From assembly GCA_002862095.1 (NCBI GenBank), contig PHSQ01000001.1, positions 620,001-684,000 of the forward strand: a DNA stretch of 64,000 nt, read 5' to 3'. The translations under genes and the position numbers were made by a program. Below the pieces are notes generated by a model. That model was given only the letters and a program-made list of their open reading frames with translations, made no database searches and was not told where the DNA came from. This DNA is from Methylocystis sp. KS32 (GTDB lineage Bacteria > Pseudomonadota > Alphaproteobacteria > Rhizobiales > Beijerinckiaceae). This document shows, one piece after another, positions 32,077 through 41,217 of this stretch; within the stretch, counting starts at the first letter, position 1; every line of letters begins with the position of its first letter.

Positions 32077-32431
32077 TACGCCCTCCTATTCCATCGAATG
32101 CGAGCGGTCTTGGCGATCCGGTCGTGGTTGACGAGCGCGCTCACGGAGGCCCGCGACTTGTTTCAAGACAGCGCGGAAACCAATCGTCTGGCGCCGAATT
32201 GCTCGCGCAAATTTAGAAGACATTTTTCTATTCGGCCAGGACGAGCCGATATCTTAATCATAAGGCGCTCCCGCGGCGGCCCAAACTAGCGTTGGCGGCA
32301 TGTTTTGCGCCGGCGCGAGCGCTCACGCGAAAAACATCTCGCGGCAGGGGGTGACGACCGCGGCTTTTGGGTTTAGGTTGCGCTGCAGCGAAGCGAAAAA
32401 ATCCGCACAATTTGCTTTCCGGAGGGCCCGC

Positions 32432-33307
32432 ATGGCGCGTTTCCGATTCCCAAGACCGGCGCTTTTCGCCGGGAGTGGGAAGAGATCTTCCGTTTTGCTC
32501 GGCCTCTCTCCGCTACTCGGCGGCGTGCTCGATCCGCAGGGGCCGGCGGCCTCCGGCAATGCGCAGATTCTGCTCAACGCCGTCGCGATCATGATGGCCA
32601 TCGTGGCTCCGACCATCGTCGCGACGATGGTCTTCGGATGGTGGTTTCGCGCCTCGAACAAGAGGGCGACATATCTCCCGAACTGGGACTATTCCGGTCG
32701 TCTCGAACTCATCGTGTGGGGTATTCCGCTGCTCGTCGTATTGTTTTTGAGCGGCGTGACATGGATCGGTTCGCACGATCTCGATCCGGCCCGTCCCATC
32801 GCCTCTCCAACGAGGCCGATCGAAGTGCGGGTCGTCTCGCTCGATTGGAAATGGCTGTTCATCTATCCCGAGGAGGGCGTGGCCAGCGTGAACGAAATCG
32901 CGTTGCCGGCGGGCCGGCCAGCGCATTTTTCGCTCACTTCCGGCACGGTCATGAACGGTTTTTTCGTGCCGCAACTCGGCGGCATGATCGCCACGATGAA
33001 CGGCATGGTGACGCAACTCAACCTGCAAGCCGATCGGCCGGGCGACTATTACGGCCAATCCACCCAATTCAGCGGCGGGGGCTTTTCCGACATGCATTTC
33101 CTGCTGCGCGCGCTTCCGCCGACGTCCTTCGCGCAATGGGTCGAAGACGCCCGAAAATCCACGAAGATTCTGGACGAGGACGCCTATCTCGCCATGGCGA
33201 GAGAGAAAGCGGCGGCGCCCCGAGCACTTTACGGCTCGATCGACAAAGCCCTTTTCGAAAACATCGCCGCGCGCCGTCTGTTGGTGGAAACGCCCGAAAC
33301 CGAGTAA
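32432..33307 (+). CDS. cyoA: Cytochrome o ubiquinol oxidase subunit II
   Basis: 291 residues from ATG 32432, with GGAGGG upstream. Heme-copper oxidase subunit II: signal region, two TM helices (ILLNAVAIMMAIVAPTIVAT, then ELIVWGIPLLVVLFLSGVTW) and a periplasmic cupredoxin fold. The Cys/His ligands of the CuA centre are absent (TSGTVMNGFFVPQLGGMIAT in their place), which identifies a quinol rather than cytochrome c oxidase. YGQSTQFSGGGFSDMHF is a CyoA mark. The lipobox Cys found in many CyoA is not visible. First gene of the cyo operon. Confidence 0.92.
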   Translation: MARFRFPRPALFAGSGKRSSVLLGLSPLLGGVLDPQGPAASGNAQILLNAVAIMMAIVAPTIVATMVFGWWFRASNKRATYLPNWDYSGRLELIVWGIPLLVVLFLSGVTWIGSHDLDPARPIASPTRPIEVRVVSLDWKWLFIYPEEGVASVNEIALPAGRPAHFSLTSGTVMNGFFVPQLGGMIATMNGMVTQLNLQADRPGDYYGQSTQFSGGGFSDMHFLLRALPPTSFAQWVEDARKSTKILDEDAYLAMAREKAAAPRALYGSIDKALFENIAARRLLVETPETE

Positions 33308-33331: not shown

Positions 33332-35350
33332 GTGATCATGTTTGGCAAGCTCACATGGGCCGCGATTCCTTGGGATCAACCGATCCCCCTCTTCGCCGGC
33401 GCCTTCGTCGTCGTCGCCGCGCTCGCTGTCCTGCTCTGGATTGGAGTTAAAGGCTACTTCCCTTATCTCTGGAACGAATGGATCACGAGCGTCGACCATA
33501 AGCGGATCGGCGTCATGTACGTGCTGCTCGGGCTCGTCATGTTGCTGCGCGGCTTCGTCGACGCGGTGATGATGCGCACGCAGCAGGCTGTCGCCTATCA
33601 GGCGCCTGGTTATCTGCCGCCCCATCACTACGACCAGATATTCTCGGCGCATGGCACGATCATGATCTTCTTCGCGGCGATGCCGATAGTTATCGGGCTG
33701 ATGAATTTCGTCGTCCCATTGCAACTCGGCGCGCGCGACGTCGCCTTTCCGACGTTGAACTCCACCGGGTTCTGGCTTACCGCGAGCGGCGCGCTGCTCG
33801 TGAACATCTCGCTCGTCGTGGGCGAGTTCGCCCAGACCGGCTGGCTGCCCTACCCGCCCTTGTCGGAACTTCCCTATTCTCCGGGCGTCGGCGTCGATTA
33901 TTATCTCTGGGCGCTTCTGATTTCCGGCGTCGGCACGCTGATGACCGGCATAAATTTCGTCACGACGATCCTGAAAATCCGGGCGCCGGGCATGAGCTAC
34001 ATGCGCATGTCGATGTTCTGCTGGACCGCGCTCGCCTCGAACATGCTGATCGTCGCTGCCTTTCCGATCCTGACGGCGACGCTGATCATGATCGTGCTCG
34101 ATCGTTATCTCGGTTTCCATTTCTTCACCAACGACGGCGGCGGCAATATGGCCATGTTCGTCAATTTGATCTGGGCCTGGGGACATCCCGAGGTCTACAT
34201 CCTGGTGTTGCCGGCATTCGGCGTTTTCTCCGAGGTGATCTCGACCTTCTCCGGCAAACCCCTTTTCGGCTATCGTTCCATGGTGATCGCCACACTGGGC
34301 ATCTGCATCATATCGTTCGTCGTCTGGCTGCATCACTTTTTCACGATGGGCGCCGGCGGCGACGTCAACGCGGTGTTCGGCATCGCGACCAGCATCATCG
34401 CCGTGGTCACGGGCGTGAAGATATACAACTGGCTGTTCACGATGTATGGCGGACGCATCCGCTACAATACGCCGATGTTGTGGTCGCTCGGGTTTCTGGT
34501 CACCTTCGTCGTCGGCGGGATGACCGGCGTGCTGCTCGCCGTGCCGCCGGCGGATTTCGCGCTCCACAACAGCCTCTTCGTCATCGCCCATTTCCACAAT
34601 GTGATCATCGGCGGCGTGCTTTTCGCAGCCTTCGCCGGCGTCACTTTTTGGTTTCCCAAGGCCTTTGGCTTCCGTTTGCACGAAGGCTGGGGCGTGGCGG
34701 TGTTCTGGTTCACGACTATCGGATTTTACGTGACCTTTTTCCCGCTCTATGTCGCCGGCCTGCTGGGGATGACGCGCCGTTTGCAACATTTCGACGTGGC
34801 GGCGTGGCGGCCCTGGGTGCTGATCGCGAGCGCCGGCGTCGCCATCTCGGCGCTTGGCATGATCTGCCAGATCGTTCAGCTTGTCGTCAGCATCCGCCGG
34901 CGCGCCGAACTTCTCGATCCGACTGGCGATCCCTGGAATGGACGCTCGCTCGAATGGGCGACGGCGTCGCCGCCGCCCGTATTCAACTTCGCCTTCCTAC
35001 CGCAAGTGAACGACCAGGAGCCCTATTGGGCCATCAAGCAGCGCGCCATCGAAACCCAGCATCTCGCGGCCGTTGGCGAATATCTGCCGATCGAGATGCC
35101 CAGAAACAGCGCCACCGGGTTCTTGACTTCCTTCTTTGCGACCCTGACCGGCTTCGGCCTGATCTGGCACATATGGTGGATGGTGATCGCGGGCCTCGTT
35201 GCCGCTTACGCCGGCTTCGTCTGGTTCGCCTGGCGCGACGAAGACGAATACGAAATACCGGCGAGCGAAGTGCAAAGACTGGATGGCGAACGGCGACGGG
35301 CGCGGGAAGAATGGCTGGCGCGCGAGGGCAACCTGGGAGGCGTGGCATGA
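33332..35350 (+). CDS. cyoB: Cytochrome o ubiquinol oxidase subunit I
   Basis: 672 residues from GTG 33332 (ATG 33338 also possible). Proton-pumping catalytic subunit. Heme and CuB ligands: His in FSAHGTIMIFF, the cross-linked His-Tyr in WGHPEVYILVLPAFG, His-His in WLHHFFTMGAGGDVN, and HFHNVIIGG near helix X. Residues KRIGVMYVLLGLVMLLRG mark the N-terminal region. About 15 helices, as in CyoB. It ends 4 bp inside cyoC (ATGA overlap). Confidence 0.95.
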   Translation: MIMFGKLTWAAIPWDQPIPLFAGAFVVVAALAVLLWIGVKGYFPYLWNEWITSVDHKRIGVMYVLLGLVMLLRGFVDAVMMRTQQAVAYQAPGYLPPHHYDQIFSAHGTIMIFFAAMPIVIGLMNFVVPLQLGARDVAFPTLNSTGFWLTASGALLVNISLVVGEFAQTGWLPYPPLSELPYSPGVGVDYYLWALLISGVGTLMTGINFVTTILKIRAPGMSYMRMSMFCWTALASNMLIVAAFPILTATLIMIVLDRYLGFHFFTNDGGGNMAMFVNLIWAWGHPEVYILVLPAFGVFSEVISTFSGKPLFGYRSMVIATLGICIISFVVWLHHFFTMGAGGDVNAVFGIATSIIAVVTGVKIYNWLFTMYGGRIRYNTPMLWSLGFLVTFVVGGMTGVLLAVPPADFALHNSLFVIAHFHNVIIGGVLFAAFAGVTFWFPKAFGFRLHEGWGVAVFWFTTIGFYVTFFPLYVAGLLGMTRRLQHFDVAAWRPWVLIASAGVAISALGMICQIVQLVVSIRRRAELLDPTGDPWNGRSLEWATASPPPVFNFAFLPQVNDQEPYWAIKQRAIETQHLAAVGEYLPIEMPRNSATGFLTSFFATLTGFGLIWHIWWMVIAGLVAAYAGFVWFAWRDEDEYEIPASEVQRLDGERRRAREEWLAREGNLGGVA

Positions 35351-35994
35351 CGGCGACGGCGATACTCACCCCGTCCGAAGGCGCGGCGCTGGCGATCCAC
35401 GGCGCGCCCGGCCACGGCGAAGGCGGTCCGGCGTCTAAATTTGTTGTCGTAAGCTATGGCTTCTGGATTTTCCTGCTGAGCGACATCGTGATGTTCGCCG
35501 GGTTTTTCGCGGCGCACGCGGTGTTGCAGAACGCGATCGACGGAGGACCCGCCGGCTCCGCTCTCTTCCATCGCAATACCGTCGCTCTGGAGACGGCCTG
35601 CCTGCTGCTCTCGAGCTTCGCTTGCGGATTATCCTGGGCGGGCGCCTCAGCCCGTCGCATGGCGTGGACGCAATCGGCGCTGTTCGTCACCGGGCTTCTC
35701 GGCGCCGGCTTCCTCGCGCTGGAGGCGCGGGAATTCGCCGAAATGATCGGGGCCGGGGCCGGCCCGCAACGCAGCGCCTTTCTCTCTTCTTTCTTCGCGC
35801 TCGTCGGCTGTCATGGCGCGCATGTCAGCGTCGGGCTGTTGTGGCTCGCCACCATGATGGCGCAGTTGCGGATCAAGGGCTTTCGCGCCCAAATCCAGCG
35901 GCGGTTGCTGTGTTTCAACCTGTTCTGGCACATGCTGGACATTGTCTGGGTGGCGATCTTCACGCTGGTTTACCTTTTGGGAGGCGCGCGATGA
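35347..35994 (+). CDS. cyoC: Cytochrome o ubiquinol oxidase subunit III
   Basis: 215 residues. Five-helix subunit III: GFWIFLLSDIVMFAGFFAAH, ETACLLLSSFACGLSWAGAS, EAREFAEMIGAGAGPQRSAF, SFFALVGCHGAHVSVGLLWL and FWHMLDIVWVAIFTLVYLLG. The Glu/His/Trp pattern is conserved. ATG overlaps the cyoB stop and its own stop overlaps the next ATG, so translation of the operon is coupled. Confidence 0.94.
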   Translation: MTATAILTPSEGAALAIHGAPGHGEGGPASKFVVVSYGFWIFLLSDIVMFAGFFAAHAVLQNAIDGGPAGSALFHRNTVALETACLLLSSFACGLSWAGASARRMAWTQSALFVTGLLGAGFLALEAREFAEMIGAGAGPQRSAFLSSFFALVGCHGAHVSVGLLWLATMMAQLRIKGFRAQIQRRLLCFNLFWHMLDIVWVAIFTLVYLLGGAR

Positions 35995-37112
35995 CCCTTG
36001 AGGCCGAATCAAACGCCGCTGGGGACGCAGCGCCGGGCCAACCGGAAGACTCCAGCGAGGGGTCGGGCGAGGCTGTCATCAGCTATTCCATCGGGTTAGC
36101 GCTCTCGGCCCTGTTGACCGCCGCCGCTTTTTATCTCGACGCCTCCGGCTGGCTCTGGGCTCCGAGCATACCCGTCGCGCTCTCGGTCCTCGCGATCGCG
36201 CAGGTCGGCGTGCATCTCGTGTTCTTTCTTCATCTCACCTCGTCGCCCGACAGCGTCAATAATTCGTTGGCCTTGGCCTTTGGGACGTTGATCGTCGCGC
36301 TCGTCATTGTCGGCACGCTATGGATCATGGCGCATATGAACGAGAACATGCCCCAAATGACGGAGACGACGGCGCCGGTTCGAGGCGCCCATGCCAAGAT
36401 CGTGCGCGGCGTCGTCGAATTTGGCGAAGACGTTCCCGTGGGCGCGGCGGTGGAGGGGGTCGTTCGATCGGTCGCCTGCGACGTCGCGACCAAGGTGAGG
36501 GAAGGTCAAATCTGCGCGACGATGGATCAGGCGCCATTCGAACGCGCCATCGCGCAAAGGCAGGATGAAACTCGCACGTGGGAAGACCGCGAGAAGCTCG
36601 CCGAGGCGGGGATGAAGAAGGCGGAGATGATCGTCGCGCGCCCTTCGTCGAAGAACGGCGCCGCCAAGGAGCGTCTGAAGGCCGCGCAGGCGCGGGTCGA
36701 GGAGGAGCGACGCGGGCTGACAGAGGCGCGGAAGGCGCTCGACGCGGCCAAAGCCGCGCTCGATCAAACCAATGTGCGCGCGCCAATAGACGGGGTGGTG
36801 CGGGCGCGCAATGTGGAGCCAGGAAGCGAGGTCGGCCCGCGAACGAAGGCGCCTCTCTTTGTCGTTGCGAAAACGCCGGATCCGGCCGAGATCGGCGTTT
36901 TTGTCACAGCCAATCGGGCCGCGAATTTGAGAGTGGGAGAGAAGCTGAACTTCACTGTCGATCGATTGCGGGGACGGCGCTTCGAAGGCGAAGTCGTGAG
37001 TCTCGAACCATCCACGGAGCCCGCTGGATACACAGTCCGCATCGCCACGCCGAATGCGGACCGCGCGCTCGATGCGGGGGAGGAAGCGACCGTCGTCCTA
37101 CCGCCCGACTAA
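35991..37112 (+). CDS. CyoD (subunit IV) fused to a periplasmic adaptor (HlyD/RND MFP) domain
   Basis: 373 residues, uninterrupted frame. Residues 1-118 are CyoD-like: three helices at about 28-49, 59-81 (SVLAIAQVGVHLVFFLHL) and 91-115 (LIVALVIVGTLWIMAHMNEN). CyoD normally ends here at about 110-130 residues. Residues 140-371 are a membrane-fusion/adaptor protein: first lipoyl half (VGAAVEGVVRSVACDVATKV, REGQICATMDQAPFERAIAQ), a coiled-coil hairpin (181-260), second lipoyl half (TNVRAPIDGVVRARNVEPGS) and a beta-barrel part (EIGVFVTANRAANLRVGEKL). CyoD's C-terminus is periplasmic, so the adaptor would sit in the periplasm. ATG overlaps the cyoC stop. No efflux pump gene and no cyoE follow. Confidence 0.85.
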   Translation: MTLEAESNAAGDAAPGQPEDSSEGSGEAVISYSIGLALSALLTAAAFYLDASGWLWAPSIPVALSVLAIAQVGVHLVFFLHLTSSPDSVNNSLALAFGTLIVALVIVGTLWIMAHMNENMPQMTETTAPVRGAHAKIVRGVVEFGEDVPVGAAVEGVVRSVACDVATKVREGQICATMDQAPFERAIAQRQDETRTWEDREKLAEAGMKKAEMIVARPSSKNGAAKERLKAAQARVEEERRGLTEARKALDAAKAALDQTNVRAPIDGVVRARNVEPGSEVGPRTKAPLFVVAKTPDPAEIGVFVTANRAANLRVGEKLNFTVDRLRGRRFEGEVVSLEPSTEPAGYTVRIATPNADRALDAGEEATVVLPPD

Positions 37113-37120
37113 ACCGTAGG

Positions 37121-37579
37121 TCAGGGGGTTGCCCCGACTTTGTCCGCGCTAAGCCGGCGATCGCGGTTCTTCGAAAAGGACGAAGCGTCGAAAAGCTCCT
37201 CGTCCATCGACAGCGCGACGAACCGGCGGAACAGAAGATCGAACTCTGGAGCAAAATCCGAAAAAGTTGATAGACTTTTTCGACAAGATTTTGCTCCAGC
37301 TTTTTGAAACTGGAGCGATTTCTTATCGACCAGACGATTCCGTCTGGTCGATAAGCGCTCTAGCCGCTCGACGAACTGACGTTCCGAACGCAGCGTGTAG
37401 AGCATCTGCAGCAGCGACGCCCGTGGAAGCCGCTTCGGCGGGATCGAGGGGCGACCGCCCGATTTGTCGAGCGTTTCGAAATGCGAATCCATCGCGGCGA
37501 GCGAGGCGCTCACCATGTCGCGCATCGCCCGAAGCGGATGCGCCTTCGGGATGCGCGTCTCGTTGTCGACATAGCACAA
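37121..37579 (-). pseudogene. IS5-family transposase N-terminal remnant, split by a MITE
   Basis: The minus strand reads HPLRAMRDMVSASLAAMDSH, GGRPSIPPKRLPRASLLQML, YTLRSERQFVERL, then after an inserted repeat DLLFRRFVALSMDEELFDAS and SFSKNRDRRLSADK. This is the start of an IS5-type transposase (RPSIPP, LRSER, FRxFVxL, FSKNRDRLL) with the catalytic part missing. The insert at 37246-37363 keeps the frame open but is foreign. It begins 9 bp after the cyoD-fusion stop, in the opposite direction. Confidence 0.75.
37246..37363 (+). repeat. MITE-like repeat, copy A (inside an IS5 remnant)
   Basis: 118 bp, ends CTGGAGC and GCTCTAG. It matches copy B (52462-52580, opposite orientation) along its whole length with few differences. 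It holds nested hairpins: GAGCAAAATCC with GGATTTTGCTC-like partner, GCTCCAG with CTGGAGC, and CCAGACG with CGTCTGG. It interrupts the IS5 transposase remnant. Confidence 0.8.
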
Positions 37580-40068: not shown

Positions 40069-41217
40069 ATGTCCTGGAATAAGCCCAAGCACGGATTGGC
40101 TTTCACCCTTGTCCACTGGCTGTTGGCGCTGGCGGTTCTGGCCTCGCTCGGGCTCGGCTGGCGCGCTCATTTCTTGCCCATGAGCGGCGACGAACGCGCC
40201 CTCGTCGATGAATTGCACATATCGCTTGGGCTCACCGCCGCCGGCCTGCTCGTCGTGGCGGTTTTGCTCCAGATCTTTTCCCGCCAACCCGCGCCGCCGA
40301 GCGCCGCGCCGCACTGGAGCGAGGCGGCGGCTCCGTGGCTCAACGCGCTGCTTTATCTGCTCGTCGCGGTCATGGTCGCGAGCGGCTATCTGGGGCTGGT
40401 TTTCACTGGCGAGACGATCGAGTTCTGGGGCGCGCCTTTGCCGAACTGGGGCGAGCCGAACGACCGGCTGGTCGAACTGAGCTCGAACGTGCATCGAATC
40501 GCGGCCTACATGCTCGTGGCGGTTCTCCTCGCCCATATCGTCGTCGCCGTCGCGGGGGCGCTGCGCCGCTCCGAGGCGAAAGGCGTCGGCGGATTTCCCG
40601 CGCCGCTCGCCGCGGATTCGCTCGCCGAGAGAATCGGGCGCGATCTCGCGAGAAAAATGAATCTTCTCGGCTGGGCGGGTTTCTGGCTTCAGTTCGTTTT
40701 CGCCTTTCTCTCGGGGCTGCTGTTGCAAATCGCCACGGCCGGGCGGATGCTCAGCGCCGCTAACGCCGGAATCGGCGACGCGCTTTCATGGAGCGGTTGC
40801 GCGCTCCTCGTGCTTCTGTTTACCTGCGCGCTGATGTTTTATTACACGAGGCGGGCGCATCGGCTTGCGGCGGCGCCGCAATATTGTCTCGATAAAAACG
40901 ACAACTCCGGCCTGTGGTATCTCACGGCGGGCATCGGGCTCGGCCTTCTGGGGCTTCTGTCATCCTTCGGCGGCGTAGCGCTGAGCATCGTCCTGCTCAT
41001 CGCCAAGACCGTGTCGCAACCGCCGGGCATCGCCATCACCGATCCCACCAAAATCATCAGGGCGCTCGACATTTTCGTTCTGCTGATGAGCTTTCTGCTC
41101 CTGATCGCCCATTTCATCGGCTTTGGAATTAGCCTGTGGCTGCGCGTCTCTCTCGCCAGCGCCCGCGGGCGTTATCGCAAGGGGAGCGCAAAAGCGGGTG
41201 ATCTGTCCAACAGTTGA
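40069..41217 (+). CDS. Cytochrome b561-like domain fused to a DUF3611-like domain
   Basis: 382 residues, eight hydrophobic helices. Residues 1-170 resemble prokaryotic cytochrome b561: HGLAFTLVHWLLALAVLASL (heme His), DELHISLGLTAAGLLVVAVL, and SSNVHRIAAYMLVAVLLAHI (two His). Residues 195-365 resemble DUF3611, a cyanobacterial/plastid-type membrane family: KMNLLGWAGFWLQFVFAFLS, TAGIGLGLLGLLSSFGGVAL, DPTKIIRALDIFVLLMSFLL and IAHFIGFGISLWLR. Inner membrane, probably a quinol or ascorbate-type electron-transfer protein. The DUF3611 match is from memory of the family pattern. Confidence 0.7.
   Translation: MSWNKPKHGLAFTLVHWLLALAVLASLGLGWRAHFLPMSGDERALVDELHISLGLTAAGLLVVAVLLQIFSRQPAPPSAAPHWSEAAAPWLNALLYLLVAVMVASGYLGLVFTGETIEFWGAPLPNWGEPNDRLVELSSNVHRIAAYMLVAVLLAHIVVAVAGALRRSEAKGVGGFPAPLAADSLAERIGRDLARKMNLLGWAGFWLQFVFAFLSGLLLQIATAGRMLSAANAGIGDALSWSGCALLVLLFTCALMFYYTRRAHRLAAAPQYCLDKNDNSGLWYLTAGIGLGLLGLLSSFGGVALSIVLLIAKTVSQPPGIAITDPTKIIRALDIFVLLMSFLLLIAHFIGFGISLWLRVSLASARGRYRKGSAKAGDLSNS

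Follow-up and report, generated by a model that had tools for sequence, protein, structure and literature searches.

The window analysed here, a stretch of 64,000 nucleotides from the genome of Methylocystis sp. KS32, holds a quinol oxidase locus in the gene order cyoABCD, in which the last gene, after cyoA, cyoB and cyoC, encodes a CyoD subunit joined to an efflux-type adaptor (Table 1). The start of cyoA is uncertain, the TIGR01433 match beginning only at residue 75 of the frame, and the translation of cyoB contains motifs, spotted by eye, which we take from the E. coli enzyme to be the haem and copper ligands. The fusion gene is a single open frame on the plus strand of 373 codons plus a stop; its start overlaps the cyoC stop as ATGA and is preceded by GGGAGG. 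The frame and its coupling to cyoC thus agree with the preliminary description of this DNA. Directly behind the fusion gene lies a convergent transposase domain (DUF772; positions 37124-37579, minus strand), and further downstream (40069-41217) a cytochrome b561-type domain and DUF3611 share one frame.

Table 1. Features of the cyo locus in the window, and the F1 alpha-adaptor fusion elsewhere in the same genome
Feature	Position	Strand	Basis
cyoA, quinol oxidase subunit II	32300..33307	+	TIGR01433, 268.0 bits (cut-off 266.2)
cyoB, quinol oxidase subunit I	33332..35350	+	TIGR02843, 1006.1 bits (just below cut-off 1020.35)
cyoC, quinol oxidase subunit III	35368..35994	+	TIGR02842, 214.0 bits (just below cut-off 223.75)
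cyoD-adaptor fusion gene, 373 aa	35991..37112	+	Frame, profile matches, alignment with relatives, AlphaFold model
CyoD domain, residues 29-120	36075..36350	+	TIGR02847; model helices 25-51, 59-83 and 88-119
Junction, residues 121-135	36351..36395	+	Low-confidence linker (pLDDT <50 at 120-133); no extra helix in model
First lipoyl half, residues 136-179	36396..36527	+	HlyD_D23 match; model strands
Cys163 codon	36477..36479	+	Invariant across the fused and standalone members compared
Cys175 codon	36513..36515	+	Invariant partner of Cys163
Alpha-helical hairpin, residues 181-258	36531..36764	+	Model; tip shortened, complete RLS motif absent
Second lipoyl half, residues 260-294	36768..36872	+	HlyD_3 match; model
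Beta-barrel part, residues 297-371	36879..37103	+	TIGR01730 match up to residue 370; model strands
N-type F1 alpha-adaptor fusion, window's genome	G000:C1:271305-272696; L204:7294-9864	minus	NCBIfam 'alternate F1F0 ATPase', 863 bits, plus adaptor

When the single translation was searched against domain profiles, both halves scored above the curated cut-offs. The N-terminal part matched COX4_pro (residues 34-105, 42.9 bits, cut-off 28.9) and the CyoD family TIGR02847 (29-120, 91.5 bits, cut-off 81.45), and the C-terminal part matched HlyD_D23 (148-362, 49.9 bits, cut-off 30), HlyD_3 (262-352, 41.9 bits, cut-off 22.2) and RND_mfp TIGR01730 (139-370, 104.4 bits, cut-off 94.9). The AlphaFold model places three helices in residues 25-119, followed by a lipoyl half, a hairpin, the second lipoyl half and a barrel; its confidence is mostly pLDDT 77-98 in the adaptor part and lower, about 50-70, in the CyoD part. 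MacA and AcrA were the closest structural matches. The heme-copper oxidase subunit IV and the HlyD/RND-type adaptor that the preliminary description had recognised in the two halves were therefore both borne out. Compared with cytochrome bo3 CyoD (TIGR02847, PF03626; structure solved within bo3, e.g. 6wti), the window protein has the same whole domain, the cyoABCD gene order and three predicted helices, but it is 373 residues long instead of about 110-130, an adaptor of about 240 residues being added. Ahead of the junction the CyoD part has an HMNENM-like end, as in E. coli. At the level of sequence it is certain that the gene encodes a single protein, in which a whole CyoD of the cytochrome bo3 type is extended at its C-terminus by a MacA-derived adaptor.

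The same architecture was found in related genomes: complete CyoD-adaptor fusions occurred in 12 copies in 11 genomes, which belong to three genera of a single family; the carriers G251 and G274 are single-contig genomes. In Methylocystis, the genus of the window, CyoD was present in 7 of 39 genomes, always as a fusion or its remains; four copies were complete, one was cut by a contig end (G020), one had a frame ending before the barrel (G028), and one (G008) starts with TTG and contains an internal TAA. The genus holding Methylocapsa acidiphila B2 contributed six complete copies from five genomes, and a third related genus two genomes; the carriers of a complete fusion include Methylocystis sp. 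H62 and M. acidiphila B2 itself. Across the family sample, 112 of 298 genomes had a CyoD match. Those read were the 30 best, all remaining frames of at least 344 residues, a few shorter ones and one of 340 residues; the shorter frames outside this set are too short for a whole adaptor, so truncated fusions among them could be missed. The other CyoD proteins read, from outside the three genera and also from two Methylocapsa-group genomes, G184 and G162 (both of its copies), ended within 35 residues of the domain. An initial scan of named genomes revealed no fusion; in the named-genome scan in which 80 of 526 loci were kept and all 80 read for the CyoD tail, four were fused. Two of these were complete (L109 and L110) and two, from Methylocystaceae MAGs, were a broken (L111) and a cut copy (L112) with tails of 89 and 85 residues, compared with at most 24 in the unfused loci. 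In the order search (397 genomes, up to four candidates each) the window's was the sole full-length CyoD fusion among the matches listed, and in the class search (385 genomes, E up to 1e-30, up to six candidates each) no frame above 800 residues was listed outside the window's genome.

Since the same open fusion frame is conserved in other genomes, the window fusion is neither a product of chance nor a local frame error, the latter having been named in the preliminary description as what could overturn it. An internal start giving two separate proteins is conceivable, yet nothing else in favour of an artefact was found, the open frame recurs in independent genomes, including two that are single contigs, no Shine-Dalgarno-like sequence precedes any of the five in-frame start codons in the stretch scanned around the junction (36291-36420), and a separate adaptor would lack an anchor of its own, so that the probability of an artefact is negligible. 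G028 has a fusion that lacks the barrel, the fusion of G008 is broken and G184 has a plain CyoD, so some lineages can do without the module. G251 has two cyo operons (L077 and L078) whose cyoB rows in the tree are identical and whose adaptor modules are clearly different, the RLS motif described below being kept in L077 and not in L078; this suggests module exchange or fast change.

The adaptor subfamily is not confined to the oxidase, which goes beyond what the preliminary description had in view. Several of the best adaptor relatives within Methylocystis sit in very long frames, and in the same genera the subfamily, whose first lipoyl half carries an invariant cysteine pair, is fused C-terminally to P-type ATPases, to the alpha subunit of N-type F1 and to AHSA1-like and four-TM proteins. 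The fusion loci read comprised 46 with P-type ATPases, three with F1 alpha, three with AHSA1, two with four-TM proteins and one without class, and a further search of relatives added two P-type ATPase fusions. Nine of the 46 P-type ATPases were identified by Pfam search and most others by the DKTGT motif; L239 and L240, cut by contig ends, were placed with them by hand, and L241 starts inside the ATPase. The P-type ATPase fusions span several classes, some with hemerythrin. In L234 (820-5703, minus) and L235 (1672-6468, plus) an N-terminal AI-2E transporter, a P-type ATPase and the adaptor form one chain of about 1600 residues; an AI-2E gene also lies near the P-type ATPase locus of Methylocella tundrae and Methylocapsa polymorpha. 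The heavy-metal ATPase of Methylocella tundrae is 68% identical over residues 32-760 and stops short of the adaptor. That of Methylocapsa polymorpha matches along residues 34-1082 in two pieces, and the plasmid table gives the adaptor gene alone there, so this copy may be split or broken. The AHSA1 fusions (L265, L285 and L286) combine an AHSA1-like domain with a predicted TM helix and the module, and in L279 and L280 a four-TM protein with no Pfam match of its own is joined to the module.

Within the window's genome, 18 adaptor-family loci were found. Four of these carry the cysteine pair, all four on ion pumps: CyoD, N-type F1 alpha, a heavy-metal P-type ATPase with hemerythrin and another P-type ATPase. 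In one of these four, the P-type ATPase on C3, the adaptor is weak (56 bits; HlyD_D23 27.5, below the cut-off of 30, and HlyD_3 23.6, above 22.2). The F1 alpha fusion is followed directly by the gamma gene, while the housekeeping F1 alpha of the same genome has a normal C-terminal end; N-type F1 alpha-adaptor fusions were also found in G034 (L242) and G025 (L243), and among the best 12 of 1286 plasmid records the matches were confined to residues 4-524. The window's genome (assembly 92.8% complete) yielded no standalone MacA with the cysteine pair, a result in favour of the modules associating with each other or with another partner.

Long frames outside the three genera were read in part. Two candidate counter-examples from pmoA-negative relatives in a Methylocapsa-group genus, G136 and G101 (1463 and 1475 residues), turned out to be RND pumps with an adaptor that lacks the pair, the G101 frame matching ACR_tran and HlyD_D23 and that of G136 being assigned by likeness. 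These chains resemble the fusions in joining a transporter to an adaptor, but their host is an exporter, which CyoD and F1 alpha are not. Eleven further long frames (617-1138 residues) from the order, family and class searches, and L292 (896 residues, G327), likewise had adaptors without the pair; the eleven showed no P-type ATPase motif, and the sequence ahead of their adaptor was unlike a fused domain. The occurrence of one adaptor subfamily on many hosts makes the odd oxidase one case of a shared module. Sequence data thus outline a fusion family in Methylocystis, the Methylocapsa group and the third genus, in which several proteins of the inner membrane or the cytosol, most of them ion pumps, carry one cysteine-pair module.

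The relationships of the modules were examined in a careful tree of 60 of the 83 rows (23 were dropped, L246 among them) and in a quick tree. In the careful tree the fused modules formed one supported clade (100/97) beside standalone MacA-like adaptors; both standalone adaptors tested had a MacB-like neighbour, whose 519-522 bits lie below the model cut-off of 966. In the quick tree the P-type ATPase module L246 fell outside the fused clade, and a single clade of all fused rows, L246 included, was not rejected by the AU test (p 0.79). The CyoD modules of the Methylocapsa set were nested with a P-type ATPase module in the careful tree (100/98), and those of Methylocystis and the third genus stood apart (97/84). 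None of 200 bootstrap trees (0%) united both CyoD sets, but in the AU test on the quick tree a single CyoD-module clade was not rejected (p 0.79), the constrained tree being better than the unconstrained one. For cyoB, a single clade of all carriers plus G184 was rejected (AU p 0.002; quick tree, 39 rows). Because the CyoD modules fall into two supported clades and the cyoB genes of the carriers do not form one, it is likely, although not proven, that these sequences record two separate fusions of CyoD to the module.

The module differs from MacA of MacAB-TolC (3fpp, 5nik, 9qgy) in that it has no N-terminal anchor of its own, CyoD standing in its place, and no adjacent MacB; in addition, its hairpin is shortened, the RLS motif incomplete and the cysteine pair present. 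According to passages of PMC3391258, RxxxLxxxxxxS is the TolC-binding motif of MacA, AcrA and MexA, with T at the last position in HlyD. We scored this motif at the aligned columns of one automatic alignment. It was complete in 8 of 12 standalone and 4 of 6 outgroup adaptors but in only 4 of 65 fused rows; with T allowed, the counts were 8/12, 6/6 and 5/65, and both R and L were kept in 11/12, 6/6 and 11/65, respectively. The four complete fused motifs belong to one CyoD fusion (L077) and three P-type ATPases (L206, L211 and L212), and a fourth P-type ATPase fusion has RLT. The window fusion is gapped at these columns, and the motif is incomplete in 11 of the 12 CyoD fusions. L250 and L253 (scores 66 and 56), L292 and the short adaptor of L206 were omitted from the tree and the motif counts; L281 was counted as standalone, although it is cut by a contig end and placed among the fused modules. 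The difference between standalone (8/12) and fused rows (4/65) makes export through TolC unlikely.

The cysteine pair showed the opposite pattern, being present in 12 of 12 standalone and 65 of 65 fused rows (77/77 together) and in none of the six outgroup adaptors, which are of other types; Cys163 and Cys175 were invariant in the 13 fusions aligned. Within the first lipoyl half the two cysteines are probably linked by a structural disulfide. Among the CyoD modules, mean pairwise identity was highest in the lipoyl halves (0.52 and 0.54), intermediate in the hairpin legs (0.40) and the barrel (0.39) and lowest in the tip (0.18). We infer from this pattern a docking end freed from its old constraint and a lipoyl body that was kept. 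However, identity was lowest at the tip in the standalone and outgroup sets as well (0.44 and 0.28, respectively), and when the 65 fused rows were taken together, tip and barrel hardly differed (0.27 and 0.29); thus, part of the decay may be general.

Predicted topology was assessed by a hydropathy rule, in which the best 19-residue mean from 80 residues upstream of the adaptor had to be at least 1.4 with at most one charge. By this rule a TM helix lies ahead of the adaptor in 11/11 standalone members, 3/3 F1 alpha fusions, 6/6 fusions of other kinds and 38/46 P-type ATPases. Five of the eight P-type ATPases failing it had their best segment 55-61 residues upstream with two or three charges; L234 had two charges, L257 reached 1.34 and L250 had none. 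The F1 alpha fusion has a proline-rich linker and one hydrophobic stretch (569-587) before the adaptor, so that this F1 alpha subunit would cross the membrane through its added module. The P-type ATPase and F1 alpha fusions thus resemble the CyoD fusion in adaptor clade, cysteine pair, C-terminal position and predicted periplasmic location, and most of them differ in bringing a TM helix before the adaptor, whereas in the CyoD fusion the model has no extra helix between the two parts. CyoD normally has its C-terminus in the periplasm, and a subunit that already ends there would need no added helix. A periplasmic location of the module in most hosts read is therefore well supported by prediction.

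In the 15 related cyo loci compared with the window, which include the unfused one of G184 and several that are short or at contig ends, only cyoABC recurs widely. No exporter or outer-membrane factor gene recurs beside the fusion in these loci and the window; the non-recurring neighbours searched for domains were eight in the window. Genes for a PQQ dehydrogenase-like and a patatin-like protein lie near the cyo operon in both L070 (G005) and L085 (G229), i.e. in both genera, and a K+ transporter near the cyo locus is common to the window, L072 and L073.

The distribution was also compared with that of pmoA, the marker of the copper enzyme pMMO. A pmoA match was found in all 11 genomes with a complete CyoD fusion (fragmentary in G287), in none of the three whose copies are cut, truncated or broken, and in one (G184) of the 13 tested genomes with a CyoD that is plain as far as read. 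A strict link to methanotrophy is rejected by the pmoA-positive genomes G164, G184, G227 and G304, in which no long-frame adaptor fusion was among the matches listed, and by the pmoA-negative G001 and G028, which have P-type ATPase fusions. In five pmoA-negative relatives of the Methylocapsa group, no cysteine-pair pump fusion was among the matches listed. The link to pmoA is an association only, because kinship confounds it.

Efflux adaptors are usually regarded as parts of exporters, and no described class is known in which such an adaptor forms part of a respiratory oxidase or of F1 alpha. Among the titles and abstracts listed in searches of the open-access literature, none described such adaptor fusions; the term 'P-type ATPase' does not occur in the portion of PMC8277102 that was searched.

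As to function, a role of the module as a periplasmic tether or scaffold has, in our judgement, an even chance of being correct. The lipoyl and barrel body would act as the tether, through which the pump complexes could self-associate or cluster at shared sites of the envelope or of the intracytoplasmic membrane, the outer-membrane docking tip having been given up. The MacA lipoyl and barrel bodies pack side by side into rings. A periplasmic brace for the oxidase, as proposed in the preliminary description, is possible. More speculatively, and with only a slender chance of being right, the cysteine-pair modules of different pumps might co-assemble, so that the quinol oxidase, the N-type ATPase and the P-type ATPases would share mixed periplasmic rings in a physical ion-pump supercomplex, joined from its periplasmic side, in methanotrophs, which have stacked intracytoplasmic membranes.

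Alternatively, the cysteine pair could sense redox conditions in the periplasm or a metal, for instance copper, and so adjust the attached pump. The restriction of the pair to the fused and standalone rows (77/77 compared with 0/6 in the outgroup), the heavy-metal P-type ATPases as one host class and the pmoA matches in 11/11 genomes with complete CyoD fusions speak for such a role. At the same time, standalone MacA-like adaptors have the pair as well, which separates it from the fusions and leaves room for a purely structural role, and some hosts (N-type F1 alpha, AHSA1) are not metal-linked. Sensing is thus a rather unlikely function. The adaptor could also connect its ion pump with an outer-membrane channel of the TolC type, through which ions or by-products would leave the periplasm. 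This would suit its MacA- and AcrA-like fold, it would be sensible for metal-exporting ATPases, and the RLS motif is complete in L206, L211, L212 and one CyoD fusion. However, it is complete in 4/65 fused rows only, the window hairpin is shortened, the oxidase has no solute to export, the AHSA1 fusions showed no transporter domain, and no exporter or outer-membrane factor gene recurs beside the cyo loci compared. We therefore consider trans-envelope export improbable, and the export complex to which the preliminary description had tied the oxidase received little support. A marginally poorer prospect is that the module is mobile, a gene fragment that landed behind other genes and was tolerated with no common function. 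The sporadic distribution, the many hosts, the diverged copies and the truncated or broken ones in G028 and G008 would fit this. Nevertheless, the frames have stayed open and the cysteines invariant despite large divergence, the predicted topology is periplasmic in most hosts read, and the same oxidase subunit was probably fused twice independently.

In this fusion family one adaptor lineage has turned into a C-terminal module of unrelated energy-converting complexes, a respiratory oxidase among them, and this points to an undescribed periplasmic link between, or control of, unrelated pumps. The idea is testable in culturable strains. If the module gathers or controls pumps, this would be a new way of organising bioenergetic membranes and may bear on the membrane layout of these methanotrophs.
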